From Candidatus Saccharibacteria bacterium oral taxon 488 (lineage in GTDB: Bacteria > Patescibacteriota > Saccharimonadia > Saccharimonadales > Saccharimonadaceae): a DNA stretch of 64,000 nucleotides. The stretch is from positions 620,001-684,000 of the forward strand of contig CP047919.1 of the NCBI GenBank assembly GCA_010202465.1, written 5' to 3'. A model generated the notes under the pieces. That model was given only the letters and a program-made list of their open reading frames with translations. It was not told where the DNA came from and made no database searches. The position numbers were made by a program, and so were the translations under genes. Numbering within the stretch: the first letter of the stretch is position 1; every line of letters starts with the position of its first letter. Below, in pieces: positions 21,353 through 46,651 of the stretch.

Positions 21353-22876
21353 CTACTCGGTGATAACTTCAATCTCTGCACCCAGCGAATTCAGCCGCTG
21401 CGCTAGTTCCTCGTAGCCACGATTAATTGAATACACGTCACGCAACACTGACACACCCGGCGCCGCTAGCATTGCGAGCAGTATGACAACTGAGGGCCTC
21501 AGTGCTGGTGGTGCAACAATATCCGCTGGCTTCCACCTGGTCGGACCGCTGATGTATACCCGGTGTGGATCAACCAGCTCAATGTGCGCGTTTAACTTAC
21601 TTAGCTCAGTGAAATAAATTGCTCGATTTTCATAGCTCCAGTCATGTACCAAGGTCCGGCCCTCAGCCATGGTAGCAATCAGCCCCAAGAACGGCAAGTT
21701 GTCCATATTAATCCCCGGAAACGGCAGCGCGTGAATCTTGTCTTTTAGCGCAACCAACTTGGAGTGTTTCAGCGTGATATCCACCAAGCGAGTACGACCG
21801 TTGTTGGCTGCATATTCCTCACTCAACTCATATTGCAAACCCATCTCAGCCAATGTTGCCAGCTCAATTTCCAGAAACTCAATTGGCGCCCGGCGCACCG
21901 TGATTTCTGAATCAGTCACCACGGCCGCCGCGATAAAGCTCATCGCCTCGATCGGGTCTTCAGACGGGCAATAATCGACTGCCGTATTGATGTGCGACCG
22001 GCCCGTGATTTTTAGCGTCGTTGTACCAATTCCTTCGATGGTCACGCCCAATTTCTGCAAGAAGAAACACACATCCTGCACCATGTAGTTCGGGCTGGCA
22101 TTGCGGATGATGGTGGTGTCCGTGGACAGAGCCGCCGCCATGATAACGTTTTCCGTCACCGTGTCGCCGCGTTCAGTCAATAAAATTATCCGATCGCCCG
22201 TTGTCGGCTCGACGCGCGCATGATAGTACCCACCCTCGGCCTCTACCTGCATCCCAAAATGCTTCAGGCCCGACAGGTGTGGCTCCACCGTACGCTTACC
22301 GAGGTTACAGCCACCGGCAAATGGCAGCCGAAAATCATGATATTGATGAAGCAGCGGGCCAAGGAGCATAATCACGGTACGCGTGCGCTTGGCAGCAGCG
22401 ATATCCATGTCCTCCAGCCTCAGCCGCGCCGGTGGTATAATCTCTAGGTCGTTCTTTCGCAGCCAACGAGTTTTAACGCCAATTGAGTTGAGCACCTCAA
22501 TGATCCGGTTAACCTCCTCGATACGCGCCACATGACGCAGCGTCGTTTTTCCCTTGTTGAGCAAGCTGGCACAGAGCAGCCCCACGGCCGCATTCTTGCT
22601 CGTTTTGACCGATATATCACCAGAAAGTTTTTTACCGCCATGCACCCGAAAGTTCATCTTGCCTGAGTGATTGAGCGTAACGATGTTACAGTTGAGCACA
22701 TCACTAATCCTCATTAGCATCTCGACACTAATATTCTGACCGCCGTTCTCGATACGATTGATGGCACTTTGTGATGTACCAATGGCCTCAGCTAGTTGCG
22801 TCTGGGTGAGGCCTTTGCGATTACGATTCTCATTGATAATAACGCCGATTTTTTGGAGATAGTCATTCATACTCAT
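21353..22876 (-). CDS. murA: XRE-type HTH fused to UDP-GlcNAc 1-carboxyvinyltransferase (MurA)
   Basis: First committed enzyme of peptidoglycan synthesis, with an unusual N-terminal DNA-binding domain. Residues of about 1-65 form a Cro/C1-type HTH (NRKGLTQTQLAEAIGTSQSA then INRIENG). The MurA EPSP-synthase fold then fills about 430 residues: GGKKLSGDISVKTSKNAA with the KN substrate pair, the reactive Cys in GGCNLGKRTVEPHLSG, and the C-terminal RPSVVILLAMLAAPG and RGYEELAQRLNSLGA. I chose ATG 22876 because -10 TATATT is 7 nt upstream; an in-frame ATG at 22897 lies upstream of it. It is divergent from glyA. Confidence 0.93.
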   Translation of the reverse strand: MSMNDYLQKIGVIINENRNRKGLTQTQLAEAIGTSQSAINRIENGGQNISVEMLMRISDVLNCNIVTLNHSGKMNFRVHGGKKLSGDISVKTSKNAAVGLLCASLLNKGKTTLRHVARIEEVNRIIEVLNSIGVKTRWLRKNDLEIIPPARLRLEDMDIAAAKRTRTVIMLLGPLLHQYHDFRLPFAGGCNLGKRTVEPHLSGLKHFGMQVEAEGGYYHARVEPTTGDRIILLTERGDTVTENVIMAAALSTDTTIIRNASPNYMVQDVCFFLQKLGVTIEGIGTTTLKITGRSHINTAVDYCPSEDPIEAMSFIAAAVVTDSEITVRRAPIEFLEIELATLAEMGLQYELSEEYAANNGRTRLVDITLKHSKLVALKDKIHALPFPGINMDNLPFLGLIATMAEGRTLVHDWSYENRAIYFTELSKLNAHIELVDPHRVYISGPTRWKPADIVAPPALRPSVVILLAMLAAPGVSVLRDVYSINRGYEELAQRLNSLGAEIEVITE

Positions 22877-22943
22877 AGCGTACAATATATCACACATGAT
22901 ATATAATGTAAAGTGCTATAATAGAGGAAAAGGAGGGAGTGTT

Positions 22944-24215
22944 ATGCAAGATACACAGGTCGCCGATTTAATTGCGGCAGAAATAAAACGGCAGCAGTCG
23001 GGGATCGAAATGATCCCAAGCGAAAATTACGTTTCAACTAGTGTACTCAAGGCGCTGGGCAGCGTCTTTACCAACAAATATTCTGAGGGTTACCCCGGAC
23101 GACGCTATTACGGCGGACAAGAAAACACCGACCAAATTGAACAGCTGGCGATTGACCGCGCTAAACAGCTATTCGGTGCTGATCACGCCAATGTCCAGCC
23201 GCACTCTGGCGCCCAGGCCAACGAGGCGGTGTATTATGCGTGGTGTGAGCCTGGCGATACTATCCTAGCGATGGATTTGGCGCATGGCGGCCACCTGACG
23301 CATGGCGCGCCAGTCACCCGCTCAGCCCGCGAATATACCTTCGTCCGCTACGGTATCAAGGATGTCGAGACTGGCGAAATTGACTATGAGGAAATCCGCC
23401 GTTTGGCGCTGGAACATCGGCCAAAAATCATCTTGGCGGGCTTCTCGGCCTATCCGCGCGAGCTAGATTATGCTAAGTTTGCCGAGATTGGCAACGAAGT
23501 CGGCGCTATGTTGATGGCCGACATGAGCCACATCGCTGGACTAATTGTCGGCGGCGTAGCCAAAAATCCGTTTGATTATGGTTTTCACGTTATCACCACT
23601 ACCACGCACAAAACCTTGCGCGGGCCGCGCGGCGGCTTGATTTTGTCAAAAGGCGTGGTGGGCAATCCTTTGAAGCGACCAGAAAAAACCTTAGAAAACT
23701 TGCCAACACTGATTGACCGGGCGGTCTTCCCTGGCACTCAAGGTGGCCCACACATGCACACCATCGCCGCCAAGGCAGTGGCCTTTGGCGAGGCGTTACG
23801 CCCAGAATTCACGGAGTACGCCCAGCAAATCGTAAAGAATGCGGCCGTGCTGGCAGATGAACTGAAACGCGGCGGCTTGAAGCTGGTGACAGGTGGCACC
23901 AGCAACCACTTGGTGCTAGCGGATGTTTATGGCAGCTTCGGCATTGACGGTAAAACCGCTCAGGAACGGCTGGAGGCCAGCGGCATCACCGCCAATGCCA
24001 ACGCCATCCCCAATGACACCCTGCCGCCATTCCGCCCAAGTGGCCTGCGTCTCGGCACGCCAGCGGTGACGACACGCGGCATGACGGAGGCAGAAGTCAA
24101 ACAGATTGCTGAGTGGATTATCACAGCGATAACCGCAGAGGACTCGGCAGAATACGCAAAAATTAAGCAGCAAACTACTAGCCTTGCAGCGCGTTTTCCG
24201 CTACCATATAACTAA
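22944..24215 (+). CDS. glyA: Serine hydroxymethyltransferase
   Basis: PLP enzyme making glycine and 5,10-methylene-THF from serine, feeding FolD. The product is 423 residues with IPSENYVS, KYSEGYPGRRYYGG, QPHSGAQAN, the PLP lysine in TTTTHKTLRGPRGG, and RLGTPAVTTRGM. ATG 22944 has an AAGGAGGGAG ribosome-binding site; -10 TATAAT is at 22917-22922, leaving a leader of about 15 nt, so unlike many neighbours it is not leaderless. Confidence 0.97.
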   Translation: MQDTQVADLIAAEIKRQQSGIEMIPSENYVSTSVLKALGSVFTNKYSEGYPGRRYYGGQENTDQIEQLAIDRAKQLFGADHANVQPHSGAQANEAVYYAWCEPGDTILAMDLAHGGHLTHGAPVTRSAREYTFVRYGIKDVETGEIDYEEIRRLALEHRPKIILAGFSAYPRELDYAKFAEIGNEVGAMLMADMSHIAGLIVGGVAKNPFDYGFHVITTTTHKTLRGPRGGLILSKGVVGNPLKRPEKTLENLPTLIDRAVFPGTQGGPHMHTIAAKAVAFGEALRPEFTEYAQQIVKNAAVLADELKRGGLKLVTGGTSNHLVLADVYGSFGIDGKTAQERLEASGITANANAIPNDTLPPFRPSGLRLGTPAVTTRGMTEAEVKQIAEWIITAITAEDSAEYAKIKQQTTSLAARFPLPYN

Positions 24216-24229
24216 TACTAAATAACTTG

Positions 24230-24369
24230 GGGGGCAAATCAGAAATGATTTCTTCAAACAAAACTAAAGGTTTCACATTGGTTGAGCTCTTGATCGTCAT
24301 CGTGGTCATCGCTATCTTGGCTGCTATTTCGATTGTGGCGTACAATGGTGTGACACAAAAAGCACGTGA
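24230..24369 (+). repeat. 140-bp inverted repeat, left copy (pilin 5' end)
   Basis: It covers the G-run/ribosome-binding region, start codon and conserved N-terminal helix of the plus-strand pilin. It matches 25045-25184 in inverted orientation with one mismatch by eye (C versus T in the codons for LLIVIV). Confidence 0.93.
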
Positions 24370-24679
24370 TAGGGAACGAGAATCAAATGCACGTAATATT
24401 GTCAATGCCGCCGCAATCCATAAGTCAGACCGCGATTTTTGGCCCGACATCAATGACCTTGCTAGCTACACTGTCGTTAAACTACCGCCAAATCTAACCG
24501 ACTCGACAAAAGTGGGCTCGTCTATTAGTGCCGGCCGCGATACGTATAAATTTCAACTTTGTAAAAATAACGGATTTACCTCCAATAAAAAAGAAGCTAC
24601 TGGCGTCCGAGTCGAGTACCTTCGAGAAGAAAGTCCAAATAGTGGAATTCAGAATATGACAGCAGGTACATGCCGATAA
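24245..24679 (+). CDS. Type IV pilin, major-type (copy 1)
   Basis: Secreted pilus subunit of 144 residues. A short leader MISSNKTKG is cleaved before Phe (GFTLVELLIVIVV), giving the hydrophobic N-terminal helix used for polymerisation; a variable globular domain with two late Cys follows (LCKNN and the C-terminal TCR, a likely disulfide). ATG 24245 follows a GGGGGG run. The first 41 codons are almost identical to the convergent pilin at 24756-25169; the rest differs completely, so the pair looks like one conserved start with two exchangeable heads. Confidence 0.93.
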   Translation: MISSNKTKGFTLVELLIVIVVIAILAAISIVAYNGVTQKARDRERESNARNIVNAAAIHKSDRDFWPDINDLASYTVVKLPPNLTDSTKVGSSISAGRDTYKFQLCKNNGFTSNKKEATGVRVEYLREESPNSGIQNMTAGTCR

Positions 24680-24698
24680 ACTATCTACCCGCGCGAAT

Positions 24699-24731
24699 AA
24701 AAGAGCTCCACATACCCCTTGGAGCTCTTTT
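24699..24731. terminator. Bidirectional terminator between convergent pilins
   Basis: Perfect 12-bp inverted repeat AAAAGAGCTCCA / TGGAGCTCTTTT with a 9-nt loop and T tracts on both strands. Confidence 0.88.
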
Positions 24732-24755
24732 GTTTGGTCTTTTAGTTCTCTCAGC

Positions 24756-25169
24756 CTAGCAACCCGATCCAGCCGTATAGGTTTCGGTGTGAATAGCATT
24801 CTTGGCCTCGTTCCAAATAGTAATCTTTGCACCAGTTTGAGGACTACCACATGCCTCTAGCTTATAGTGGTCTTTATCAACGGTATTATCACTAAGCTTG
24901 TCAACAGCCTTAGCCGGTACTTTGACCGTGTTGTAATCCTTCAAAGCTTGCTTGTCGTTTGCCGTCAACCACTTACCTTCATTCTCGGCATTATATGATG
25001 AAATGGCGTTAATGATGTTGCGTGCATCTGATATGCGCTCATCGTCACGTGCTTTTTGTGTCACACCATTGTACGCCACAATCGAAATAGCAGCCAAGAT
25101 AGCGATGACCACGATAACGATCAAGAGCTCAACCAATGTGAAACCTTTAGTTTTGTTTGAAGAAATCAT
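24756..25169 (-). CDS. Type IV pilin, major-type (copy 2)
   Basis: The product is 137 residues with the same leader and helix as copy 1 (KTKGFTLVELLIVIVV, cleavage after the Gly) but a different globular head, again with two Cys (EACGSP and the C-terminal GSGC). It faces copy 1 across a shared terminator. The 5' context matches copy 1 only as far as the G run at 25180-25184; further upstream the sequences diverge, so the two copies probably have different promoters. Confidence 0.93.
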   Translation of the reverse strand: MISSNKTKGFTLVELLIVIVVIAILAAISIVAYNGVTQKARDDERISDARNIINAISSYNAENEGKWLTANDKQALKDYNTVKVPAKAVDKLSDNTVDKDHYKLEACGSPQTGAKITIWNEAKNAIHTETYTAGSGC

Positions 25170-25184
25170 TTCTGATTTGCCCCC
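25045..25184 (-). repeat. 140-bp inverted repeat, right copy (pilin 5' end)
   Basis: Inverted partner of 24230-24369 (139 of 140 identical by eye). The inner ends are about 675 bp apart and enclose both variable pilin heads and the terminator. Confidence 0.93.
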
Positions 25185-25297
25185 TATTTTTAGTTAGTTA
25201 TTATTGTAACTTGATTGTAGCAAAGCGATTATAAAAGCGCAAGCATTTTATACATAATTACCTATTGCTACCCCCAATTAACCATAAATACAGAGGT

Positions 25298-25349: not shown

Positions 25350-26015
25350 CTATGGACACGAGGCGCCGGCAGTGCCGTTTACAGGAACATTGATTGACTT
25401 GACGAAGCGCTGACTGGAATATTCGATATTCTGACCCGCAACCGTCTTGGTTACCCCGAGGCTGACTTTGAGCGTACCGTCATTGATCTTGCAAACATTG
25501 AAATTAAGCACCGTACTGGTATCGATGATCGTTTCGACTGCCCCGTCCAACTGCCAGATACGGTCGGTGGCGCTCGGGCATGAGCCGTCATACATCGTCT
25601 TGCGCTTGAGCTCTGAACCACTTTGGAAATATTCGGTCGTATATGTCTTGGCGTCGGCGATAGCAACTGCTCCCCACGCTACGCCACAATCACTTTTCTG
25701 GATCAGCCGTCGCGTCGGGCTATAGGGGTTGTCGCTGGTGGCGAGACTATGTATGCGCACATACGAGGATGTTGTTCCCTCAAGCGTAGTACTGAGCCGT
25801 ACATCTGCCTCAATTCGATCAAGTGCCGTTAGCACATCACTCTGTAATTGTGACTTGGCGCTGGTGACCATTGACGAACCAGTGAGATTAATGATTAGGC
25901 CAATAATACCCGCCAGTACCAAAATAATGACTGGCGCAATCGCCAAGATCTCAATGAGTGTAAATCCTTGGCTATTCTGCTGCCGATTAGCGTTAGCCCG
26001 AAATATACGTCGCAT
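25350..26015 (-). CDS. Minor pilin-like protein (PulJ-type prepilin)
   Basis: About 221 residues from ATG 26015. The leader ends in NSQGFTLIEILAI with a prepilin cleavage site, then a hydrophobic helix, then LQSDVLTALDRIEADVRLST as in PulJ/GspJ-like minor pseudopilins, and a Cys-containing globular part. It is the last of three minor pilin genes; its start overlaps the end of the preceding one. Confidence 0.85.
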   Translation of the reverse strand: MRRIFRANANRQQNSQGFTLIEILAIAPVIILVLAGIIGLIINLTGSSMVTSAKSQLQSDVLTALDRIEADVRLSTTLEGTTSSYVRIHSLATSDNPYSPTRRLIQKSDCGVAWGAVAIADAKTYTTEYFQSGSELKRKTMYDGSCPSATDRIWQLDGAVETIIDTSTVLNFNVCKINDGTLKVSLGVTKTVAGQNIEYSSQRFVKSINVPVNGTAGASCP

Positions 26016-26415
26016 GCACCACCTCCTGCGCTGGCGTTCCATAAGTAATAATTACCGCAACACGAATGACCGCGATGCTATTTGGTACTTTACAATATTC
26101 GACTCGAGCACGTACTGGATCCGGCAATGTTGGCGTGGTCGGTGGTGTCACGTGTTCAGTCTTGACCGCACCGCTGCCACAAACCTCAGATACTGTTTTA
26201 TACAAGCCACGTTCACGTAGGATGCCGTAGCCGAGATTGGCAGCTTCTGAGGTGCGGCGAGCCTCGGTATTACGTGCCAATACCGCCCCGTACAACTGGT
26301 AGCCACTCATTAAAAAGATCCCGGCAATAATCAAGGTGATCATCAATTCAATGACGGTAAAGCCGTTTTTATGACCTTTATGCCTTAGAGGCGTTTGCTG
26401 TTGAGTACTTGCCAT
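25993..26415 (-). CDS. Minor pilin-like protein
   Basis: 140 residues: a basic leader (RHKGHKNG) before FTVIELMITLIIAG, typical of class III signal peptides cut by prepilin peptidase, then a head with two Cys (VCGSG, YCKVP). It overlaps both neighbours by a few codons, so the three are translationally coupled. Confidence 0.85.
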   Translation of the reverse strand: MASTQQQTPLRHKGHKNGFTVIELMITLIIAGIFLMSGYQLYGAVLARNTEARRTSEAANLGYGILRERGLYKTVSEVCGSGAVKTEHVTPPTTPTLPDPVRARVEYCKVPNSIAVIRVAVIITYGTPAQEVVHATYISG

Positions 26416-26972
26416 TTACCCGGCTCCTTCGTTTCTAAATGATAAAAAATCGTATAGCGCCGACAGGCTGCGCCCGCCTCATCACATACACCATCCTTAG
26501 CGCCGGCAACGTAAATGTACGCACCATTTGGATAGTTCGTGATCTTGGTGTTTTCGTAATCGTCTTTTTTGGCAAGCAGTTGACTAATATTAGTTATTGG
26601 ATTGACCCCGAATGTACCGTTAATCGCCGAAATGAGGCGTTCTCGATCCAGTGGGCCGGTCTTGGCGGCACCACCCAGTTCGTCAAATGCTGCCGCAAAC
26701 TGCGCCGCAGTCATCTTGCCAGCGCCACTAGCACCAGAAACGTACGCCGGATAGCCGCCGGCAGGCTTGATGACGTTACCGGCACTGTCACGAATTTCCC
26801 GTGGATAGACGCTCTCGAGATAGTTCTGCAAGGCTAGCACATCGGCCTCACGCTCCTTATCGCGTGCCGCCGCCTGATAATTACGAAAACTTAATGTCGC
26901 GAGCACCAATAGAATCGCCATGACGGCAATAGCAATGATCAGCTCGACTAGCGTAAACCCCCGTCCCTTCAT
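26385..26972 (-). CDS. Minor pilin-like protein, first of the three-gene set
   Basis: 195 residues from ATG 26972 with a very short leader MKGRG before FTLVELIIAIAV, a long globular domain and two Cys pairs (VCDEAG, ACRRY). A -10 TATGAT lies exactly 6 nt upstream (26984-26979), so the operon is leaderless. Its head resembles pilin-like proteins with an ordered Ala/Gly-rich insertion; the role (tip or core) cannot be told. Confidence 0.85.
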   Translation of the reverse strand: MKGRGFTLVELIIAIAVMAILLVLATLSFRNYQAAARDKEREADVLALQNYLESVYPREIRDSAGNVIKPAGGYPAYVSGASGAGKMTAAQFAAAFDELGGAAKTGPLDRERLISAINGTFGVNPITNISQLLAKKDDYENTKITNYPNGAYIYVAGAKDGVCDEAGAACRRYTIFYHLETKEPGKWQVLNSKRL

Positions 26973-27019
26973 ACCCCCATCATACTCGGAAATATGCATA
27001 AGCGCAAGCGTTTTGGCGC

Positions 27020-28039
27020 TCAAATTTCCAACGGTTCTTGCTGGATCTGAATGTGGAACTTATCGTACACCGCCCGGATGATGGCGTCACGTGCCGCCGC
27101 CAGATCATGGTAGCTGGTCGCCGACTCATTGATCAATACCAGCGCGTTCTTGTCGTGCACCCGCATGCCGTGAAGCAATGTCCCCTTGAGCCCAGCCTGT
27201 TCGATCAACCAACCCGTCGGTACCTTGTGTCGGCCGTCCGGCATGTCATAGCACGGGACATCTGGATACTGTTCACGAAGTTCATTTAGCTGCCATGATT
27301 CAATCAGCGCGTTCTTGAAGAATGAGCCAGCATTAGGTCGCTCGGTCGGATCAGGCAGCTTATCAAACCGAATTGCCATGACTGCGTCACGGATCACCTG
27401 CGGCGTAAAGGTCGTGATGTTCATGCTGGTCAAATACCGCTGCAAGCCGGCATAGAACGGCGGTTTTGGCGCTGCGTGATGGAGCTTGATGGTAATTGAG
27501 AGAATGCAGTAGCGGCCGCTCGCCTCACCACGAAAAATACTATGCCGATACGAAAACCCGCACTCCGCTGCACTTAGGGTCACCACCCGGTCAGTCAGCG
27601 AATCGTACACCTCTAGCTCGGTGAGTACATCAGCAACTTCCTGGCCATACGCACCAACGTTCTGCACCGGCGCGGCGCCGGCTGTACCAGGGACGGCCGA
27701 CATTGCCTCAATGCCGCTCAGACCCATGGCGACCGTGCGTTTGACCACCTCGTCCCATGTTTCACCCGCACCAACCTTGATCGTTGCCGCCTGACCATCA
27801 TCAATCAGCACTGCAAATCCCTTGATCCGATTGAGCAACACCACCCCCTCAAACCCTTCGTCGCGAGCGATGACATTACTACCGCCACCCAAGACAAAAA
27901 TTGGGATACCCTGCACCTTGGCACTTTTATATAACTCTCTGACTTCATTCACCGACGTCGCCGATGCCATAAAGCGCGCTGTGCCACCGAGGCGCATTGT
28001 CGTATATTGTTGCAACGGAATCTCTGTTCGTATCTCCAT
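27020..28039 (-). CDS. murB: UDP-N-acetylenolpyruvoylglucosamine reductase
   Basis: FAD enzyme reducing the MurA product to UDP-MurNAc. The 339-residue form from ATG 28039 shows FAD-binding VLGGGSNVI, SGIEAMSAVPGTAGAAPVQN and VGAYGQE, the active-site Ser in PNAGSFFKN, and the late Glu in LVLINES. -10 TATAAT (28052-28047) is 7 nt upstream. An ATG three codons earlier overlaps the -10 and would not be on the transcript. The length fits type I MurB. Confidence 0.95.
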   Translation of the reverse strand: MEIRTEIPLQQYTTMRLGGTARFMASATSVNEVRELYKSAKVQGIPIFVLGGGSNVIARDEGFEGVVLLNRIKGFAVLIDDGQAATIKVGAGETWDEVVKRTVAMGLSGIEAMSAVPGTAGAAPVQNVGAYGQEVADVLTELEVYDSLTDRVVTLSAAECGFSYRHSIFRGEASGRYCILSITIKLHHAAPKPPFYAGLQRYLTSMNITTFTPQVIRDAVMAIRFDKLPDPTERPNAGSFFKNALIESWQLNELREQYPDVPCYDMPDGRHKVPTGWLIEQAGLKGTLLHGMRVHDKNALVLINESATSYHDLAAARDAIIRAVYDKFHIQIQQEPLEI

Positions 28040-37443: not shown

Positions 37444-37968
37444 CTACGAACCAAATCCCACGAATTGCGTAACCGCCTCTTGACGTTCGTCATTGCCGTC
37501 AACGATTAGCGTTTCGACATAGCCGCCTGGCCGATGATGAGCCCAATGTGGTATTGACCACGCGAATCCTTCATTGCTTGCCAGCACTGCGTCGCGGCTC
37601 AGGAACTGATAGGCGTCAATTTCCGACTGTTGCAAGACGATCTGCCTAAGTCGCGCATCATCCAGCACCGCCCGAAAGATATATTGATGCGCCAGTCCTT
37701 TGTCGCTGGAGCGTGAGGCTACCGCAAAAAACGAGACTTCATCCTCGGTGACGACTAACCCGACCTCTTCCTGGGTTTCGCGAAGTGCTGCCTGTAGCGG
37801 CGTTTCGCCAGCGTCAACCATACCACCGGGCAGACTCCAGTGCGTCTTGTAATACGCCTTGACTGTGAGCAGCTCGCTCGCCGGATTTTCAATCAGCAGC
37901 GCAGCACTGGCGATCCGAGTGTCCTGCGTCTTTAGCCACTCCTCATGCGGCAACCAACCACTTCTCAT
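37444..37968 (-). CDS. NUDIX hydrolase
   Basis: 174 residues with Nudix box GGMVDAGETPLQAALRET then QEEVGL, all catalytic Glu present. Its start overlaps the RNase Y stop (TAATG). A role in mRNA-end or nucleotide pool cleaning would fit beside RNase Y, but this is inference. Confidence 0.88.
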   Translation of the reverse strand: MRSGWLPHEEWLKTQDTRIASAALLIENPASELLTVKAYYKTHWSLPGGMVDAGETPLQAALRETQEEVGLVVTEDEVSFFAVASRSSDKGLAHQYIFRAVLDDARLRQIVLQQSEIDAYQFLSRDAVLASNEGFAWSIPHWAHHRPGGYVETLIVDGNDERQEAVTQFVGFGS

Positions 37969-39458
37969 TATTTTGCGTACTCGATCGCCCGTGTTTCACG
38001 GATGACGTTAACCTTGATAGTGCCTGGGTACTGCATGGTTGATTCAATTTTAGTAGCGATATCGCGCGACAGTTTGAATGCGCTCAGATCATCAATATCC
38101 TCTGACCGGACAATCACCCGCACTTCGCGCCCCGCAGAAATTGCATAGGCTTTATCAACACCATTAAAGCTGGTCGCCACATTTTCTAGATCGCGCATCC
38201 GCTCAGCAAAGTTCTCAGCCGAAATATTGCGCGCTCCTGGCCGAGCAGCGCTGGCAGCGTCGCACACTCGCACGATCAGTGCCTCTGGTGTCGTCGCCTC
38301 GATATCATCGTGATGCGCTTCGATGGCGTGAACGATCCGCTCATCCATGCCGTATTTGCGCGCTAGCTCGGCACCGATGTGGTGATGCTTGCCCTCGATC
38401 TTGTGCGTCACCGCCTTGCCAACGTCATGCAGCAGTGTCGCGATTTTCGTGATGCGTACATCGGCACCAATTTCCTCAGCGATCATTCCAGCCATCTGAG
38501 CCATCTCGGTGGAATGCTTCAATACGTTCTGCCCGTAACTCGTTCGGAATTTCAGCTCACCTAGCAGTCGCTGCATTTCCTTCGGGATGCCGACAACGCC
38601 AGTTTCGCGCATGGCGTCCTCGCCGGCCTGCTTGACTTCTTTATCGATCTGTTTTTTCGCCTTGGCGACGACTTCTTCGATGCGCGCTGGATGGATACGG
38701 CCATCTTTCATCAACATCTCAAGGCTCAAGCGAGCCACCTGCCGGCGAATCGGATCAAAACTCGACAGCACGATCATACCCGGCGTGTCATCCACCAAAA
38801 TATCGACACCAGTCTCGCGCTGCAGTGCCTGAATGTTGCGGCCTTCTTTACCGATAATCCGACCTTTCATCTCATCATCAGTCAGCTTAACAGCCGTGAC
38901 TGTTCGCTCAGCCGTTACCTCGCTGCTCATCCGCTCCATCGCTGTGAGCAAGATCATCTGCGCCCGTTCCTCGGCGTCATCCATAGCCTCGTGTTGTAAT
39001 TTCGACACCAAGCTAACCAAATCGTTCTTAATATCGCGCTCGGTCATTTGCATGAGCTTGTCGGCAGCATCCTTTTTCTTCAAGCCCGCAATCTTCTCGA
39101 GCTTCTCCTGCTGACGCGTGCGAATAGTGCGAATCTCTTCCTTGAGATTGTCAACCTCATCTTCGTGCGTGCGTAGCTTCTCCGCCCGCTTATCTAGTTC
39201 GTCCAATTTCCGATCCAGCGTCTGCTCGCGATCCGCCAACCGATTCTCGGTCTTTTGCCACTCGCGGCGGCGCTCATTTTCGATTTTTAAGGCTTCGTCC
39301 TTAGCCTTCAGGACAATGTCGCTGGCCTTACTCTTTGCCTCGGCAATGTCACGCTCAATTTGCGACTTGCCATTAGCTTGCCTTGTTCGCTGATAGGCGT
39401 AAAAACCGCCCACGCCAAGTGCCGCGCCAACCAAGCCGCCAATAACTATTCCTACCAT
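37968..39458 (-). CDS. rny: Ribonuclease Y
   Basis: Membrane-anchored endoribonuclease starting bulk mRNA decay. 496 residues from ATG 39458 (AAAGGAAAT ribosome-binding site; an upstream in-frame start at 39500 is less likely). N-terminal TM (IVIGGLVGAALGVGGFYAY), long coiled coil (residues 25-190), KH domain (GRIIGKEGRNIQALQRETG) and HD domain (LLHDVGKAVTH). It heads a transcript with the NUDIX gene. Confidence 0.96.
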   Translation of the reverse strand: MVGIVIGGLVGAALGVGGFYAYQRTRQANGKSQIERDIAEAKSKASDIVLKAKDEALKIENERRREWQKTENRLADREQTLDRKLDELDKRAEKLRTHEDEVDNLKEEIRTIRTRQQEKLEKIAGLKKKDAADKLMQMTERDIKNDLVSLVSKLQHEAMDDAEERAQMILLTAMERMSSEVTAERTVTAVKLTDDEMKGRIIGKEGRNIQALQRETGVDILVDDTPGMIVLSSFDPIRRQVARLSLEMLMKDGRIHPARIEEVVAKAKKQIDKEVKQAGEDAMRETGVVGIPKEMQRLLGELKFRTSYGQNVLKHSTEMAQMAGMIAEEIGADVRITKIATLLHDVGKAVTHKIEGKHHHIGAELARKYGMDERIVHAIEAHHDDIEATTPEALIVRVCDAASAARPGARNISAENFAERMRDLENVATSFNGVDKAYAISAGREVRVIVRSEDIDDLSAFKLSRDIATKIESTMQYPGTIKVNVIRETRAIEYAK

Positions 39459-39613
39459 ATGATTTCCTTTCTTTTCTGACCAATCGCCCCGGGTATACAC
39501 CCCGAGAAATGTATCAACGACTGACCATATTCAACTGATGCAATAAAACGGCCCAAGCCACTAATCTAAAGCCGCCTTACTTTTATTGTACGATATTGCG
39601 GAGGAAAATACCA

Positions 39614-39988
39614 CTATTTGCGCGGAGCCGTGATGTGAGCTTCGCCGCCATATTCGGGGAGAATAATCGTGTCGTTTTCGCCGTGCTTCAGCCGCTCCAG
39701 ACAGTCATCTCGCCAGTGATCGCCACTACTGCTAACGATCGGAACGCCGAGTCCCTCCGCCAACGTGTTTGCCACCGCACAGCCAATTCTCAGTCCCGTA
39801 AAGCTACCCGGCCCACGCATGATACCGATACCACTAATACAATGAATGCCACCCGTCTGTTCATCCAAAAATCGTAGCAGCCCTCGGGCTAAACCACGAC
39901 CCGCTTCCCAAGCCACCTCTCGCCAGGTATCACCCTGAATAATCGTTAAACGGCACGTCATCGTCGATGTATCGAGCAGAATAATCAC
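39614..39988 (-). CDS. tsaB: TsaB-like protein, short form
   Basis: Partner of TsaD in N6-threonylcarbamoyl-adenosine (t6A) modification of tRNA. Only 124 residues against about 220 usual: the N-terminal ASKHA lobe is present (LLDTSTMTCRLTI, GPGSFTGLRIGCAVANTLAEG), the C-terminal lobe absent. The sequence ends cleanly without a downstream remnant, so it is a stable short form or an old truncation. It overlaps tsaE by four bases. Confidence 0.85.
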   Translation of the reverse strand: MIILLDTSTMTCRLTIIQGDTWREVAWEAGRGLARGLLRFLDEQTGGIHCISGIGIMRGPGSFTGLRIGCAVANTLAEGLGVPIVSSSGDHWRDDCLERLKHGENDTIILPEYGGEAHITAPRK

Positions 39989-40461
39989 GCTAACTCCTCG
40001 TCCGCCGCACTAATTGCCGCGAGGAGTGCCTGGCTCGTCGGCCCGCCAGCACTCAGCGTGACACACCGCGACTGTTCGTCAATTGCTAGAATCCTCGCTG
40101 TCAGTCGATCGGCCGGCAGCACCTGCTTGACGGCACCAGCCCACTCAACCACTGTCACGGTCTGTGGCTGCATGGTTACCTCGCGAATTTCCTCCGCCAT
40201 GATGCCCGCCTCACCCAATCGATAAAAATCATAATGAGCCAGCGTCAAGTCGCCCGGTGACTGGTACACACGAGAAATAGTAAATGTCGGGCTCTGCACC
40301 GGTTCGGTAATGTCGAGACCCTTGGCGATACCCTTCGTTAGCGTTGTCTTGCCGGCACCAATGTCCCCGACCAGCTCAATAACTTCCCCGCCTTTGAGGT
40401 TGCGCCCAATTGTTTGACCCAACTGCTGCATCGCCAGTGAGCTAGCAACTACTGAGGTCAT
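39985..40461 (-). CDS. tsaE: t6A biosynthesis ATPase TsaE
   Basis: 158 residues with P-loop GDIGAGKTTLTKGI, QSPTFTISRVY, and YDFYRLGE as in TsaE; it drives ATP-dependent recycling of the TsaB-TsaD complex. It overlaps neighbours on both sides (ATGA), so it is part of the long pil-tsa operon. TsaD and TsaC are not in the window. Confidence 0.94.
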   Translation of the reverse strand: MTSVVASSLAMQQLGQTIGRNLKGGEVIELVGDIGAGKTTLTKGIAKGLDITEPVQSPTFTISRVYQSPGDLTLAHYDFYRLGEAGIMAEEIREVTMQPQTVTVVEWAGAVKQVLPADRLTARILAIDEQSRCVTLSAGGPTSQALLAAISAADEELA

Positions 40462-41042
40462 TTGCTATCGCTGCCGTCAGCTTCGGCCGCAGGATGCGCC
40501 TTTCGGAATGGATTTTCGAACGTTGCCTGTGGCTGCACAACCGGCTCCTTGTGGCGGATCTCTGGCGTCTTGACAACGATATGTTCGTCAGTCACACGAA
40601 CGATCTGCGAACGATGAATCAGCAGTTCAGTATCGCCAAAACTCTTGAGTAGCGGTCGCCGCACCCGGAGCTGCTGAATGACAAAATTACCGGCCTCCAA
40701 CGTGTAGCCGATGACCTTGCCAACCTTATGATTTTTTTCATCAATGACCCGCTTACCAACTAGTGCGAACTGAAACTCATATACTTCCTTGATCTTCAGG
40801 ACGTCGCTCGGCATAATCAGCTCGTCCGCCGAATCAATGATCAGACCCAGCGGCCCAATTTCCCGCACATCGGCGATCCGCAGTAAACTCGGCGATTGAT
40901 CAAGCGTCGGCCCTTCTAGCTCATACGCCACGATCGATAAATTGCGCGGGTCGATCACCGCCCGCGATGTCCGTGCCAGCTCCGAGCCAGTCTGCAGGCT
41001 CATCACCGGTGCGTTATCAAATCGTTCAGCAGAAATTAGCAT
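40458..41042 (-). CDS. PRC-barrel domain protein
   Basis: 194 residues from ATG 41042. Two PRC-barrel-like halves (about residues 5-75, ARTSRAVIDPRNLSIVAYEL; and 85-160, GKRVIDEKNHKVGKVIGYTL) and a charged tail. PRC barrels bind proteins or RNA in, for example, RimM; no catalytic motif. A -10 TATAAT is 9 nt before the ATG, so this gene and tsaE/tsaB have their own promoter beside the pil operon. Confidence 0.8.
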   Translation of the reverse strand: MLISAERFDNAPVMSLQTGSELARTSRAVIDPRNLSIVAYELEGPTLDQSPSLLRIADVREIGPLGLIIDSADELIMPSDVLKIKEVYEFQFALVGKRVIDEKNHKVGKVIGYTLEAGNFVIQQLRVRRPLLKSFGDTELLIHRSQIVRVTDEHIVVKTPEIRHKEPVVQPQATFENPFRKAHPAAEADGSDSK

Positions 41043-41069
41043 ACTTCTCACATTATAGCGATATCCACG

Positions 41070-41357
41070 CTATTCGGCAAACAGGTTCGTCCGCCCCGCC
41101 GGCAGACTAAAATTGGCGTTGGCGGTATCGCGCGTACGGAAACTGTTGATCTGGTCAATCGTCTTCTGGTCAAATCGCGTCGTCTGTTGTTGGATGGTAT
41201 CTTCTTTTGGATTCGACGAGGCGAGTAGACTGTAGAGCAGGAAAATTGCCACAGACACACCAACCACCACCGTCAATGTATAGAGGATAACGTGGTAGCG
41301 ATGGAAAAACCGCGACACCAGTGTACCAATTTGTGAAATATCAGGTGAATTTTTCAT
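41070..41357 (-). CDS. Small single-span membrane protein of the pil operon
   Basis: 95 residues: a cytoplasmic N-terminus, one TM helix (VILYTLTVVVGVSVAIFLLYSLL), and a short extracytoplasmic tail. It overlaps the pilO-like gene by four bases. In position it corresponds to pilP-like genes but shares no visible domain; it may be a small inner-membrane platform component. Confidence 0.75.
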   Translation of the reverse strand: MKNSPDISQIGTLVSRFFHRYHVILYTLTVVVGVSVAIFLLYSLLASSNPKEDTIQQQTTRFDQKTIDQINSFRTRDTANANFSLPAGRTNLFAE

Positions 41358-41983
41358 CGAACATATACCTCCACATCCAGAGTTTGCGTACTCACTTGGC
41401 CTGCCCCCTCAGCCTTGGACATGCTGACACTAGCGATCTGCATCCGCGTCAAGTTCTGCTCAATCAAATGCATAAATCGAAGCAGCGCCATGTAATCTGT
41501 TTTTTCGTTGAGGCGGACCGACACTTTCATGCTTTTTGGCCCGGCAGCGCTGTTTGAACCGGAGCTATTATTCGTACCCGAGGTTCCTGATGAACCCGAG
41601 TTTGACTTGGCTCCAGCCGAGCCTGATGTGAAGGTGAACCCAGCAATGCCAACGCCTGATTGATTGGCGTAAGTAGTGAGGTCATTGATGATCTGATTCT
41701 GATATTGATATTGCTGAGTTTCTGCTACTAGCTGCCGAGCCTTGGCAACACTATCCTTATATTTTTCCATCTCCTTTTCCAGCCGCGCTAGATTTTGCAC
41801 CTTAGCATCAACCGCTTTTGCCTCAGTCTGAATCTTAGAGACTTCCTCAGCGGTACCCTGCAGCATGGTGTAGCCGAAATAAACGATCCCTCCCATGCCG
41901 ACCAAGATCAGTACTAGCGACAGCGCAAAGACGATCCGCATGGTCACCGCCGGTGTCATTTTTTCTCGTTTTCTCTCACTCAT
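41354..41983 (-). CDS. pilO: Type IV pilus assembly protein PilO-like
   Basis: 209 residues: one TM helix, a coiled coil (EEVSKIQTEAKAVDAKVQNL), then a ferredoxin-like domain (SMKVSVRLNEKTDYMALLRF) with a Gly/Ser/Asn-rich insert. It forms with PilN the periplasmic-side dimer of the pilus platform. It overlaps both neighbours by four bases. Confidence 0.87.
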   Translation of the reverse strand: MSERKREKMTPAVTMRIVFALSLVLILVGMGGIVYFGYTMLQGTAEEVSKIQTEAKAVDAKVQNLARLEKEMEKYKDSVAKARQLVAETQQYQYQNQIINDLTTYANQSGVGIAGFTFTSGSAGAKSNSGSSGTSGTNNSSGSNSAAGPKSMKVSVRLNEKTDYMALLRFMHLIEQNLTRMQIASVSMSKAEGAGQVSTQTLDVEVYVR

Positions 41984-42540
41984 TGCTTCGCGACCTCCGG
42001 CACCATCGTCACATTAATTGTAATATTGATTGGGTAACCGTCCTTGTTTTCTTTTTCGGCCACCGCCGAGGCGAGATTAACATCCTTAAAGAGGTTTGAC
42101 TGCTGAAAACTGTCCTTCAGCCGCAGTGCATCGCCATACGTTTTGCCGCGTGCGTTGATAGTCATCGGCGTGCCGAGCTTCTTGCTATCCAGCGTCAACG
42201 TTTGCAAAATTGTTCCCGATGGCATCGCCTGGGCAATCTTGAGTGCCACCTTTGAATATCGCACGTCTTTATCAAGGATTGCTTTAGCGATCTTGAGATT
42301 TGCGCTAAATGATTCATAGTCCTGCTGAACTTTTTGATACTGCAGCGCCCGACGGTTACCCGTCTCAATCGTCTGCTGAGCAGTCGTTTTTGCATGCTCC
42401 ATGATCAAATAAATACCTACTGTCGCCACGATGAGTAAGAAGCCGAGGATTAACGACACCACGCAGTAGCGCCACAATATCACATTTGACCGGCCGGCGA
42501 CAATCTCACGTTTAACTTTCGGCGGTAATAGATTAATCAT
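41980..42540 (-). CDS. pilN: Type IV pilus assembly protein PilN-like
   Basis: 186 residues beginning MINLLPPKVKREI, the classic PilN N-terminal motif that docks into PilM; one TM helix, a coiled coil and a ferredoxin-like domain follow. The start overlaps the pilM end. Confidence 0.92.
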   Translation of the reverse strand: MINLLPPKVKREIVAGRSNVILWRYCVVSLILGFLLIVATVGIYLIMEHAKTTAQQTIETGNRRALQYQKVQQDYESFSANLKIAKAILDKDVRYSKVALKIAQAMPSGTILQTLTLDSKKLGTPMTINARGKTYGDALRLKDSFQQSNLFKDVNLASAVAEKENKDGYPINITINVTMVPEVAKQ

Positions 42541-43582
42541 GCCAAATCTCCTCCGCTCGCACCAGTGATAAGCCAGCTGCTGTCATAAACCGCGGTCGTA
42601 GCTGTTTGGCCGGCGGTGCTAAATTATTAAAGTTCAGCGACTGCCACGGACTAGCCACTCGTGCTGGCAGGGTCAGCTCGCCCGTAAAGTACTCACCAAG
42701 CCCTGGCACACTACTACCGCTACCAACGATCAACACCTGTTCAAGGCGGGATTCATCCGGGAAGCGATCGGTGTAGTAGCGAATAACTTTCTGGATTTCA
42801 CCGATGATCCGCTGCAGGCTCGGCTTTAGTGCCTCGGTAATCTTTTCCTGACGAGGGCCAGTGTTGAGGCCGTTAAGCACCTTGAATTGGTGCGCTGTCT
42901 CGAGTGGTACGTTCAATTTTTTCGCGATGTCAAGCGTCAATGTATTGCCACCAATGTTTAGACCACCGGTCACGCGAATTGCCGCATCAAGAATAGCGAT
43001 ATCGGTCGTCGCCGGGCCGATGTCAACGATGACTGTCGGCAGCGACCCCTCTTTGGTTCGCTCAAGCAGTCGTGCCACCGCATTGATACTCGGCTCAATC
43101 ATCGCCACCTCAATACCGCACGATTCAACAATTGCCAGCTGCTCGTCAACAATCTTTTGTGGCACTGCGCACATCAATACCGATAAATTCTCTTTGCCGC
43201 GCTTGATAATCTGATGATCGACGTAGAGCGAATCAAGCGGCATCGGCACATACTGCTCGACCTCGAGATTCACCGCCTCCTCAATCTTATTTTCCTGCTT
43301 GATCGGCAGCGCAAAGGTGCGCGCGTATGTCTTGGTCGTCGGCAACCCCAGCACCACGCGGTTACTGCCAAGCCGTCCGACAATATTTTTTTCAAACATC
43401 TGATTGATCTTGCCGCAGAGATACTCTGCCCGGTCATCGCTCTCGTCCTTCGCCGGATCCAGCTCAATTGCGCCGTATCCATGCACCGTCATCCGTGCCA
43501 TATCGACTGACATTACCCGAACGCCGGCCTTGTTAATATCAAGCCCGATGATCGGCTTTGACTTGTAGAAAATATTTGCCAC
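42533..43582 (-). CDS. pilM: Type IV pilus assembly protein PilM
   Basis: Cytoplasmic actin-like ATPase linking the motor to PilN. About 349 residues from GTG 43582; IIGLDINKAGVRV phosphate-1 loop, VVLGLPTTKTY, IVDIGPATTDIAI, and VLIVGSGSSVPGL. The in-frame upstream TTG at 43642 lacks support. A 60-bp gap with a TATACT precedes it, so a secondary promoter is possible. Confidence 0.93.
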   Translation of the reverse strand: MANIFYKSKPIIGLDINKAGVRVMSVDMARMTVHGYGAIELDPAKDESDDRAEYLCGKINQMFEKNIVGRLGSNRVVLGLPTTKTYARTFALPIKQENKIEEAVNLEVEQYVPMPLDSLYVDHQIIKRGKENLSVLMCAVPQKIVDEQLAIVESCGIEVAMIEPSINAVARLLERTKEGSLPTVIVDIGPATTDIAILDAAIRVTGGLNIGGNTLTLDIAKKLNVPLETAHQFKVLNGLNTGPRQEKITEALKPSLQRIIGEIQKVIRYYTDRFPDESRLEQVLIVGSGSSVPGLGEYFTGELTLPARVASPWQSLNFNNLAPPAKQLRPRFMTAAGLSLVRAEEIWHD

Positions 43583-43642
43583 TATCGTTTGCCCACATCT
43601 CTTCTTTTTGTTAAGTATAGCATAAGCATTTTGAAAAACCAA

Positions 43643-44869
43643 CTACCCCTTAATTTGATTTGCTAATCCAGTAATCGGCATCATCACCGCCGCCGCGATC
43701 AAGCCGACCATACCACCCATAAAGACGATCATCACCGGCTCAATCGTCGAGCTCAAACCGCTAATCGCTGCATCGACCTCTTCCTCATAAAAATCCGCCA
43801 CCTTGACCAGCACCTTATCCGTCTGGCCCGTCTCTTCACCGACCGCCAGCATCTGGCCAACGATTGGTGGATAGAGATCTTCGCGCTCATTGATAATCCG
43901 CGACAAGACCTCGCCATTCTTAATGCGCTTGGCAGCATCAAGCAATGAATCTTGATACACCGTGTTACCGACTGCCCGGGCCGTTACTTCCAGCGCCTCG
44001 AGTACCGACACACCCGCACCGATCAGCGCCGAGAAGGTACGGGTAAATCGCGCCACTGCCACCTTACGAATAATCTTACTGATGATCGGCGCTTTCAAGA
44101 CAAAATGATGGAACTTAACCTTACCTTTGGGCGACTTGATATAGCGAAGAAGGACGTACACACCGCCAAATAACAGCGGGAAAATAATATACCAAAAACT
44201 TACCATAAACTGGCTGATACTCATCAGTATCTGCGTCAGGGCTGGTAGCTCCGCGTCCTCGCCCGCCAGATCCTTAATCGTCTTGCCAATCATTGGCAAG
44301 ACAAAAATCATCAAACCAAAGAATGCCCCGATAGTGATGACGATCAGCACCATTGGATAGGTCATAGCGCTCTTGATCTTCTTTTTCATTGATGAGTTCT
44401 TTTCCTGCTGCAGGGCCAGGCGCTTCAAAATATCGTCCAAAATACCACCTGTTTCACCAGCACGCACCATGTTCACATACACATCACTGAAGGCCTCAGG
44501 GTGCTTACTCAGCGCATCAGCGAACGAGGTACCGCCTTCAATCTCCTTAGATACTGCATTCAAAATCTCACGAAAATGCGGACTTTCGGCGTGCTGGGCC
44601 ATCGAGTTAAGCGACCTGAGGATCGGTACACCGGCAGACACCATGGTGCTAAGCTGCCTGGTAAAGCTAACCAGCTCCTCGGTCGGCACTGACTTCTTAC
44701 CACCCCCAAAGCGAAGGCCCTTCTTTTCATCGCCAGCTTCCTTGAGGTCGACCAACTTCATACCCTGAGCTTGAATGAGCTGGATAGCACTGGCGCGGCT
44801 ACTGGCTTCTAGCTCGCCGTTGATCGGCTGATTGTTATTTTTAGTTGCGATATATTTAAATTTTGTCAT
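43643..44869 (-). CDS. pilC: Type IV pilus platform protein PilC
   Basis: 408 residues, polytopic GspF-family. Two repeats of the GspF domain with FTRQLSTMVSAGVPILRSL and FTRTFSALIGAGVSVLEAL, and three or four TM helices. It anchors the PilB motor at the inner membrane. It starts directly after the pilB stop. Confidence 0.95.
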   Translation of the reverse strand: MTKFKYIATKNNNQPINGELEASSRASAIQLIQAQGMKLVDLKEAGDEKKGLRFGGGKKSVPTEELVSFTRQLSTMVSAGVPILRSLNSMAQHAESPHFREILNAVSKEIEGGTSFADALSKHPEAFSDVYVNMVRAGETGGILDDILKRLALQQEKNSSMKKKIKSAMTYPMVLIVITIGAFFGLMIFVLPMIGKTIKDLAGEDAELPALTQILMSISQFMVSFWYIIFPLLFGGVYVLLRYIKSPKGKVKFHHFVLKAPIISKIIRKVAVARFTRTFSALIGAGVSVLEALEVTARAVGNTVYQDSLLDAAKRIKNGEVLSRIINEREDLYPPIVGQMLAVGEETGQTDKVLVKVADFYEEEVDAAISGLSSTIEPVMIVFMGGMVGLIAAAVMMPITGLANQIKG

Positions 44870-46651
44870 TTATTGCTCCCTTGTTGCTCTCAAAACTTCC
44901 TCTAGCGTTGTCACGCCACGCAGCGACTTAACGAAACCATCTGTCTGCATCGTTACCATTCCTTCAGTAATCGCCTGCTGCTGAATCTCATTACTGGTGG
45001 CGTTGGCAGTGATCATTTTTTGGATTGGAATCGAAATACCGAGGACTTCGTAAATACCAACGCGCCCCTTGAAACCATTATGACCGCACTCATCACAGCC
45101 CTCAGGATTTGGCCGCCACAAATATTGAATCGTCACGTCAGTCGAGCCGAGCGGTGTATTGCCACCAATCTTGTCAGCTGCCGCCTGCTGCTCCAGCGCG
45201 TGCAGCCGCTGCATCGAGCCCTGCTTGAGATTAAACATCTGGACGATGTAGGCGAGCTCTCCGGCGTCCGGCACATACTGCTGACGGCAGTGCATACACA
45301 ACCGCCGCACCAAGCGCTGGCCGATCACCGCTTTGACCGTCGAAGCGATCAAGAACGGCTCAATTCCCATATCAAGGAGACGCGGCAGACAAGTGGCTGC
45401 GTTGTTGGTGTGGAGCGTCGAAAACACCAAGTGCCCGGTCAGCGCTGCCTGCACGCCCAGGTTGGCAGTTTCACCGTCGCGAATCTCACCAACCATGATG
45501 ATGTTCGGGTCTTGACGGAGCAGTGCGCGCAGTCCTGAAGCGAAGGTCATGCCGGCTTTGGCGTTAGTCTGGGTTTGGTTGACCCCGGGGATCTTGTATT
45601 CAACCGGATCTTCAATGGTCGAGATATTCACATCTGGCGTATTAAGTTCTGATAGCACACTAAACAAGCTAGTCGACTTTCCCGAACCAGTTGGCCCGGT
45701 CACCAAGATCATGCCATTTGGTTGCGCCATAGCATCCTTGAGCGTACTCAGCGACAACCCCCAATAGCCGAGGCTATCAAGGGCAACTGCCTGGTTGGAC
45801 TCGTCCAAAATACGCATGACGATTTTCTCGCCATCAGCGATTGGCAGCGTCGACACACGCAGCGCGTATTGCTTACCAGAAACCTTAATCTTGAAGCGGC
45901 CATCTTGCGGCACGCGGCGTTCGTCAATTTTTAGGTTTGACAGGATTTTGATACGACTAACCAGTGCACCTTGGACATTGCGCGGCAATTTATTCACTTC
46001 CTTGAGCACACCATCAATTCGGTAACGAACTTGGACGAAATCCTCGCGCGGCTCAATGTGGATGTCTGAGGCACCCGACTTGATAGCATATTCCAGCAGC
46101 AAATTAACCGTCTGGGCGATCGGCGAATTCTCAGAAATTTCCTCCTCAGAAACATTTTGTGACTCTGATTCAGCACCACTCTGAATTGACACCACCTCGT
46201 CCAGCTCATCGGTAATATTACCGCGATAATTTTCCAGGCAGTCAAGAATGTTGTTTTTTGTCGCCAGGAATACCTTGATGTTGTAGCCAATCTCTTTCTG
46301 GATGAAGTTCAGTGCCTGTACATCATCCGGGTCTTCCATCGCCAGACTCAAGACGCCGTTATCATCAACCGCAAACAATACGACATTGTACTGACGAGCG
46401 ATGTGCTCGGGGATACGCTTGAGAACGTCGTCAGGAATATCCTTTGGCTCAATGGTCACAAACGGCACATTGATATATTCACCAATTTTTTGCCCGAGCT
46501 GCGCCTCACTCAGAACCCTGTGCTCCAAGATAATCGTCTGCAATGAATGGTGCGTACGTTCCGCCTCCATTTTTAACTCAGCCAGCTGTGACTCAGAAAT
46601 TACCTCACCCTGGCGCAAAATCTTCTCAATACTACTGTCAGAAATGCGCAT
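44870..46651 (-). CDS. pilB: Type IV pilus extension ATPase PilB
   Basis: 593 residues: MshEN/GspE-N domain (residues 1-150), Walker A GPTGSGKST, Asp box STIEDPVEYKIPG, Walker B IIMVGEIRDGETA, His box LTGHLVFSTLHTN, and a four-Cys metal site (CMHCRQQY, CDECGHNG). It is first gene of the operon; AAGGG precedes the ATG, -10 TATACT lies 17 nt upstream. No retraction ATPase PilT and no prepilin peptidase are in the window. Confidence 0.96.
   Translation of the reverse strand: MRISDSSIEKILRQGEVISESQLAELKMEAERTHHSLQTIILEHRVLSEAQLGQKIGEYINVPFVTIEPKDIPDDVLKRIPEHIARQYNVVLFAVDDNGVLSLAMEDPDDVQALNFIQKEIGYNIKVFLATKNNILDCLENYRGNITDELDEVVSIQSGAESESQNVSEEEISENSPIAQTVNLLLEYAIKSGASDIHIEPREDFVQVRYRIDGVLKEVNKLPRNVQGALVSRIKILSNLKIDERRVPQDGRFKIKVSGKQYALRVSTLPIADGEKIVMRILDESNQAVALDSLGYWGLSLSTLKDAMAQPNGMILVTGPTGSGKSTSLFSVLSELNTPDVNISTIEDPVEYKIPGVNQTQTNAKAGMTFASGLRALLRQDPNIIMVGEIRDGETANLGVQAALTGHLVFSTLHTNNAATCLPRLLDMGIEPFLIASTVKAVIGQRLVRRLCMHCRQQYVPDAGELAYIVQMFNLKQGSMQRLHALEQQAAADKIGGNTPLGSTDVTIQYLWRPNPEGCDECGHNGFKGRVGIYEVLGISIPIQKMITANATSNEIQQQAITEGMVTMQTDGFVKSLRGVTTLEEVLRATREQ

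Follow-up and report, generated by a model that had tools for sequence, protein, structure and literature searches.

The convergent type IV pilin genes A and B of this Saccharibacterium, an organism that probably lives on other bacteria, begin with almost the same sequence and end in unlike heads, and they raise the question of whether they are simply two neighbouring pilins or partners that exchange their heads. Pilin A (144 aa, 24245..24679, forward strand) follows glyA, the gene of a serine hydroxymethyltransferase (22896..24215, forward strand; PF00464, E 7e-156), with its ATG 29 nt and its repeat arm 14 nt beyond the glyA stop codon, and pilin B (137 aa, 24756..25169) lies on the reverse strand. 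Both look like type IVa major pilins. The prepilin motif, a class III leader with the GFTxxE N-methylation site, scores 34.4 bits in A and 35.0 bits in B against PF07963 (cut-off 21.2), and the AF2 models (mean pLDDT 82.5 and 79.4) have a long N-terminal helix, residues 12-63 in A and 12-62 in B, followed by a small globular beta head. Pilins rank top in a structure search of the PDB with either model, at weak E-values of 0.043 and 0.017 and with no match at E 0.001 or better.

Compared directly, the left arm (24230..24369, forward) and the right arm (25045..25184, reverse), which is the equivalent segment of pilin B, agree at exactly 139 of 140 bases, where the first-pass annotation had given this figure as approximate; the sole mismatch is position 24298. 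A second, independent repeat search recovers the same inverted pair, extended to 180 nt at 91%. Each arm runs from the GGGGG of the ribosome-binding site into codon 42 and comprises GGGGGCAAATCAGAA, the ATG start codon, the prepilin leader and the helix sequence up to codon 42, much as that annotation had described. Its remark that the DNA upstream of each copy differs also holds, because only 25 of the 90 bases adjoining the arms on the outside agree; on the inside, 25 of the first 40 agree and the likeness then falls to near background, so the ends of the arms are sharp. Codon 42 falls within the long first helix of both AF2 models, according to which the arms encode the leader together with most of the assembly helix, while the remaining helix and the head are unlike. 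The heads had been said to "differ totally", which is too strong: they are alignable pilin heads with two cysteines in common, and over their full length the proteins are 53% identical, to a large extent through the common N-terminus. Head A, a probable shared terminator and head B make up the 675-bp spacer (24370..25044). The GC content of the window, that is, of the whole 64,000-nucleotide stretch analysed, is 51%.

How recent the arm identity is can be judged against a null in which the 5' ends diverge as they do between relatives. Over codons 1-41, A and B differ by one synonymous codon. Against the pilins of the three closest relatives (G001, G039 and G116), either gene shows 13-16 synonymous codon differences and 0-3 amino-acid changes, and these three pilins differ from one another by 14-16 synonymous codons. 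Constraint on synonymous sites as the cause of the arm identity is not supported by these 13-16 differences between relatives. In a tree of 128 heads, A groups with P0121, P0097 (the G039 pilin), P0088, P0067, P0122 and P0123 (100/96), a group nested in a 38-row clade (99/98) that also contains P0099 (the G001 pilin); B groups with P0001-P0003 (100/97), and P0040 (the G116 pilin) belongs to a third group (93/81, not starred). AU tests, for which 48 of the 128 heads of this first tree were used, reject the A and B heads as one clade (p-AU 0.0001), and with it a recent inverted duplication of one gene as the origin of the heads. Also rejected are an exclusive clade of A, P0121, P0097 and P0099 (p 0.0035) and one of B, P0001-P0003, P0040 and P0065 (p 0.015); simple orthology with A or B therefore does not describe the heads in G039, G001 and G116. 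Since A and B heads do not form one clade while their 5' ends differ by one synonymous codon instead of 13-16, the age of the heads and the age of the 5' ends disagree. The comparison supports a recent recombination of the arms, by which the 5' ends of two old genes would have been exchanged, and it bears out the earlier reading of the near-identity at synonymous sites as recent gene conversion or inversion; the near-identity of the arms, taken by itself, fits gene conversion. An assembly or amplification artefact is thought unlikely, given that the heads differ, that both reading frames are intact, and that a 99% identical A protein (P0121) is present in two other contigs and a 98% identical protein (P0001) in another contig.

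Among the related heads, P0055, a metagenomic protein on a 707-bp contig, starts like P0035 and by eye ends like the P0030-type heads; it is either a head recombinant that arose naturally or a chimera of the assembly.

Synteny identifies pilin B as the gene that fills the slot of the relatives' pilin. G001, G039, G116, G046 and G055 all keep the gene order glyA, pilin, three minor pilins, murB, and each has one pilin, on the strand opposite to glyA. In the window, the minor pilins (25350-26042, 25993-26415 and 26385-27023, span 25350..27023, reverse strand) include two with PF07963 matches, 25993-26415 and 26385-27023, and one, 25350-26042, with a below-cut-off HpsC match. A scan of genome contigs gave one relative and a search of viral contigs none; a Candidatus Saccharibacteria record, L001, has relatives of the window pilin, glyA, murB and their neighbours in the same order. 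A survey downstream of glyA covered 90 of 174 matching genomes, taken by score and leaving out G055 (whose locus has one antisense pilin), G224, G179, G032 and G136; pilin-like ORFs were found by motif, so that divergent pilins may be missed. At least one such ORF is present in 68 of the 90 genomes, the first one being antisense to glyA in 68 of 68, single or in direct tandem. The remaining 22 regions have no pilin-like ORF, and six of these have less than 600 bases of flank. A sense pilin directly after glyA is found in none of the 68 pilin-bearing loci, and this layout occurs in the window only; a sense pilin-like ORF in L099 lies 2.1 kb downstream of glyA, past an antisense one, and was not counted.

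The slot behind the promoter is occupied by an A-clade head in G001 and G039, by a third head type in G116 and by B in the window, so the head behind the promoter has changed more than once. Such changes between species could also be explained by ordinary gene replacement. At several loci downstream of glyA, pilins stand in direct tandem, two or more at a time. The pair comparison covered the first 30 loci and gave 11 rows (four of them a pilin with a minor pilin, not counted here); seven direct tandem major-pilin pairs in it have 86-126 of 126 matching bases identical, compared with 124 in the window. Alike 5' ends with unlike heads are thus not special to the window; the inverse orientation is. 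In L049, L067 and L068, direct tandem pilin pairs have alike 5' ends and unlike heads, L049 and L067 also having near-identical upstream DNA; recombination within these direct pairs would give deletion or fusion, not inversion.

The flanks of the two genes are unequal. Upstream of B, 48-59 of 74-75 aligned bases are identical to those in G001, G116 and G039, and TTGYGY-17-TACAAT and the leader AATAGGGGGCAAATCAGA are among the conserved elements; the putative promoter region of B (25185..25259, reverse) has the footprint TTGCGC, 17 nt, TACAAT. Upstream of A, just 28-33 of 67-68 bases agree with the same genomes, and the candidate pilin promoter footprint is present before B only and absent before A. 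As the first hexamer of the B site matches the consensus at 3 of 6 positions, the site is not listed by a simple promoter scan, whose total of 3 sites is close to the mean of 2.6 in shuffled sequence; it is conservation that argues for the B promoter. The same scan lists no promoter-like site from 23900 to the ATG of A. A terminator scan with a loop limit of 8 finds no terminator-like site between glyA and A, so A may be transcribed by read-through from glyA. Between the stop codons of A and B, the interval folds at -25.9 and -21.3 kcal/mol on the two strands, and a symmetric hairpin at 24699..24731, with a 12-bp stem, an A tract on one side and a T tract on the other, is likely to be a two-way terminator common to both genes; its 9-nt loop exceeds the limit of the terminator scan, which misses it. 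Strong hairpins between the pilin and glyA also occur in G001, G039, G116 and G046. The 675-bp middle thus forms a complete module of two heads and a terminator that may work both ways. When it is flipped in silico, intact ORFs of 137 and 144 aa result, the promoter now preceding head A and glyA preceding head B, in agreement with the earlier proposal that recombination would turn the middle around; the frame would be kept since the crossover falls within coding sequence that is nearly the same in both genes.

Taken together, these observations suggest a two-head pilin cassette, in which an expression site and a promoterless partner would exchange heads by the homologous recombination of the host cell, with inversion as one possible outcome; we put the chance that this is correct at about even. 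Pilin B would hold the ancestral expression site behind the conserved promoter, and pilin A, with its older, different head, would lie inversely at the glyA end without that promoter; it would be silent or depend on read-through for its expression. The homologous recombination of the host cell (RecA, RuvAB) would keep the 140-bp 5' segment of the two genes homogenised: events without crossover between the arms would give gene conversion, and a crossover would invert the 675-bp middle and place the other head behind the promoter. Recombination between inverted copies may resolve as conversion or as inversion, and 140 bp is a modest substrate for RecA. As exchange between the arms is supported, this established behaviour makes some inversion likely, and arm recombination would give gene conversion and probably inversion. 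The dependence on RecA, a useful rate of crossover and the poor expression of A are steps that we infer. A stronger form of the proposal is a reversible inversion switch that works without a dedicated recombinase in an epibiont, in which RecA-type crossover alternates two ancient heads behind one promoter and a clonal population presents two versions of a host-contact filament; we think it less likely than not, and view it with appreciably more doubt than the cassette itself.

The genes at hand are compatible with homologous recombination as the favoured mechanism. Sixty-nine ORFs of the window were screened (at least 80 aa, overlaps thinned, open ends excluded; E cut-off 1e-3 or 1e-5 by batch), a number of which have no Pfam match. 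RuvA and RuvB are encoded among the window's genes, and RecA has no match in the 69 ORFs; it is above the cut-off in 8 of 9 genus genomes. No recombinase family is matched by any of the 69, and a linked invertase is rejected on this basis; a linked Piv of the Moraxella type (IS110-type) is likewise absent from them, and the absence of an adjacent dedicated recombinase had been noticed at first reading. Each of the 9 genus genomes encodes a tyrosine recombinase; six of them, among which are the three closest, have a single match, and the protein would most simply be a chromosome-dimer resolvase. Serine recombinase domains in two of the genus genomes (G134, C90:19567-20022, and G116, C16:111126-111584) lie within open reading frames 592 and 595 codons long, at distances from glyA of about 5 kb and 27 kb.

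The most serious competing explanation, which we regard as quite possible though short of an even chance, is a static pair under concerted evolution: A would be a fixed second pilin transcribed from the glyA operon and B the main one, and selection on the helix with occasional conversion would keep the 5' ends alike, inversion having no role. Direct tandem pairs, in which inversion is impossible, can reach the same 5' identity (126/126 in G086 and 122/126 in G101), although in G086 the identity extends upstream of the GFT codon by 60 nt or more, compared with 39 nt in the window, so that upstream DNA is shared there. Conversion in a static pair accounts for all the sequence facts save the missing promoter of A. 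This lack, which sets A apart from the pilin of three relatives, is tolerable if read-through feeds A, and the stretch after glyA, free of terminator-like sites, makes A transcribable. Against a purely static pair, conversion between inverted copies should sometimes resolve as a crossover, which is an inversion.

The unique layout would also follow if A had been pasted inversely in a single recent event, its source being a relative or, through template switching, the local pilin, and the arm identity being its trace with no later exchange. None of the 68 pilin-bearing loci has the arrangement, and A looks patchy in that, among the 120 matches listed, no A-clade row has the 742,651 that is the longest contig of P0002, a relative of B; P0035 and P0050, whose longest contigs exceed that length, may still belong with it. 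This contig argument is indirect, however, as the clusters show the longest contig only. The presence of P0121 on other contigs means that A is not unique to this assembly, and we consider a one-time event rather improbable. Less probable still is a site-specific inversion inside the arms by an unlinked dedicated recombinase, Piv-like or a serine invertase. Serine recombinases are encoded in 4 of 9 genus genomes, G116 among them, but not in G001 or G039; an IS110/Piv-type recombinase occurs in 1 of 9 and is absent from all three closest genomes; the window ORFs offer none, and a site-specific system would not require 140 bp of identity.

The proposed cassette has parallels in several known systems. 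In Moraxella bovis and M. lacunata, the tfpQ/tfpI pilin genes lie inversely with a common 5' constant part, and inversion changes the expressed head by means of Piv, a dedicated IS110-type recombinase. The window has the same two inverted pilin genes with a common 5' constant segment, but it belongs to a Saccharibacterium, its second gene stands behind glyA and Piv has no match in the 69 ORFs, so the Moraxella precedent fits the layout and not the recombinase. In the sap S-layer system of Campylobacter fetus, RecA-type recombination takes place between conserved 5' coding segments of surface-protein genes; there a promoter segment inverts and several copies exist, whereas here the heads would invert and the promoter would stay. 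Inversion is not mentioned in PMC4943207. As in sap and hsdS-like systems with RecA-type inversion, long near-identical inverted repeats lie in coding parts, here 140 bp with 139 identical. The pilS copies of Neisseria are silent, incomplete and subject to one-way conversion, unlike A and B, which are both complete genes; the window may pair one expressed with one promoterless copy, in view of the promoter footprint before B only, but glyA read-through into A is possible. Recombination of the expressed pilin with partner copies changes the pilin in Neisseria pilE/pilS, as described in PMC7394358. The same source describes inverting type I restriction loci with duplicated hsdS genes and inverted repeats, where, as proposed here, one expressed copy and a partner swap variable domains through conserved inverted repeats (PMC7394358). 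The hsdS loci differ from the pilin pair in protein and function and have several variable domains and repeats, not one; in Streptococcus pneumoniae a recombinase is encoded at the locus (PMC7394358). The inversion of M. bovis pilin genes is named in PMC11868660 and cited in PMC5903667.

What the head might do is suggested by TM7x (Nanosynbacter lyticus), for which PMC12206443 places the T4P-2 pilins in locus three and their machinery, which has no retraction ATPase, in locus two. PilA2, the major pilin, forms a thin pilus that accelerates host binding; deletion of pilA2 removed the thin pili, lowered the host cells bound from 10.6% to 4.8% and abolished an advantage over another epibiont, which deletion of pilB2 did not (PMC12206443). 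The window may share this arrangement, its putative major pilins lying beside minor pilins and at a distance from an assembly cluster in which no retraction ATPase is matched. The stretch 37968-46651 holds type IV pilus assembly genes and, after them, genes of TsaE, TsaD-family and RNase Y type, with homologues of PilN, PilM, PilC and PilB at 41980-46651, about 15 kb from the pilin block; no PilT or second T2SSE-type ATPase and no prepilin peptidase of the PilD type is matched in the 69 window ORFs. According to PMC12206443, five pilins, pilX2 among them, are encoded in locus three of TM7x, and recAX belongs to locus two; in the window, by contrast, A and B are accompanied by three minor pilins, and RecA is not matched. 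Gene order suggests that A and B are the major pilins (PilA2) of a TM7x-type T4P-2 system, and the choice of head may bear on the binding of the host bacterium. The main text of PMC12206443 on the TM7x T4P-2 makes no mention of inversion, duplication or tandem pilins, the literature searched yielded no description of pilin inversion in Saccharibacteria, and none of the best 10 of 233 records of one broad query names the group. If the pilin head does swap by inversion, contact with the host would be a phase-variable trait in Patescibacteria, and sequencing reads would offer a cheap test of surface variation in uncultured epibionts. The several pilin pairs at the glyA site with alike 5' ends and unlike heads further suggest that exchange of heads by way of the assembly helix may be a general feature of the group.

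Next to glyA, the ORF at 21353-22897 encodes a MurA-type protein (EPSP_synthase) with a fused N-terminal XRE-type HTH_3 domain. A 507-aa relative in L001 has, by eye, the same start, and the product looks like a DNA-binding enzyme fusion that has been kept in the group.
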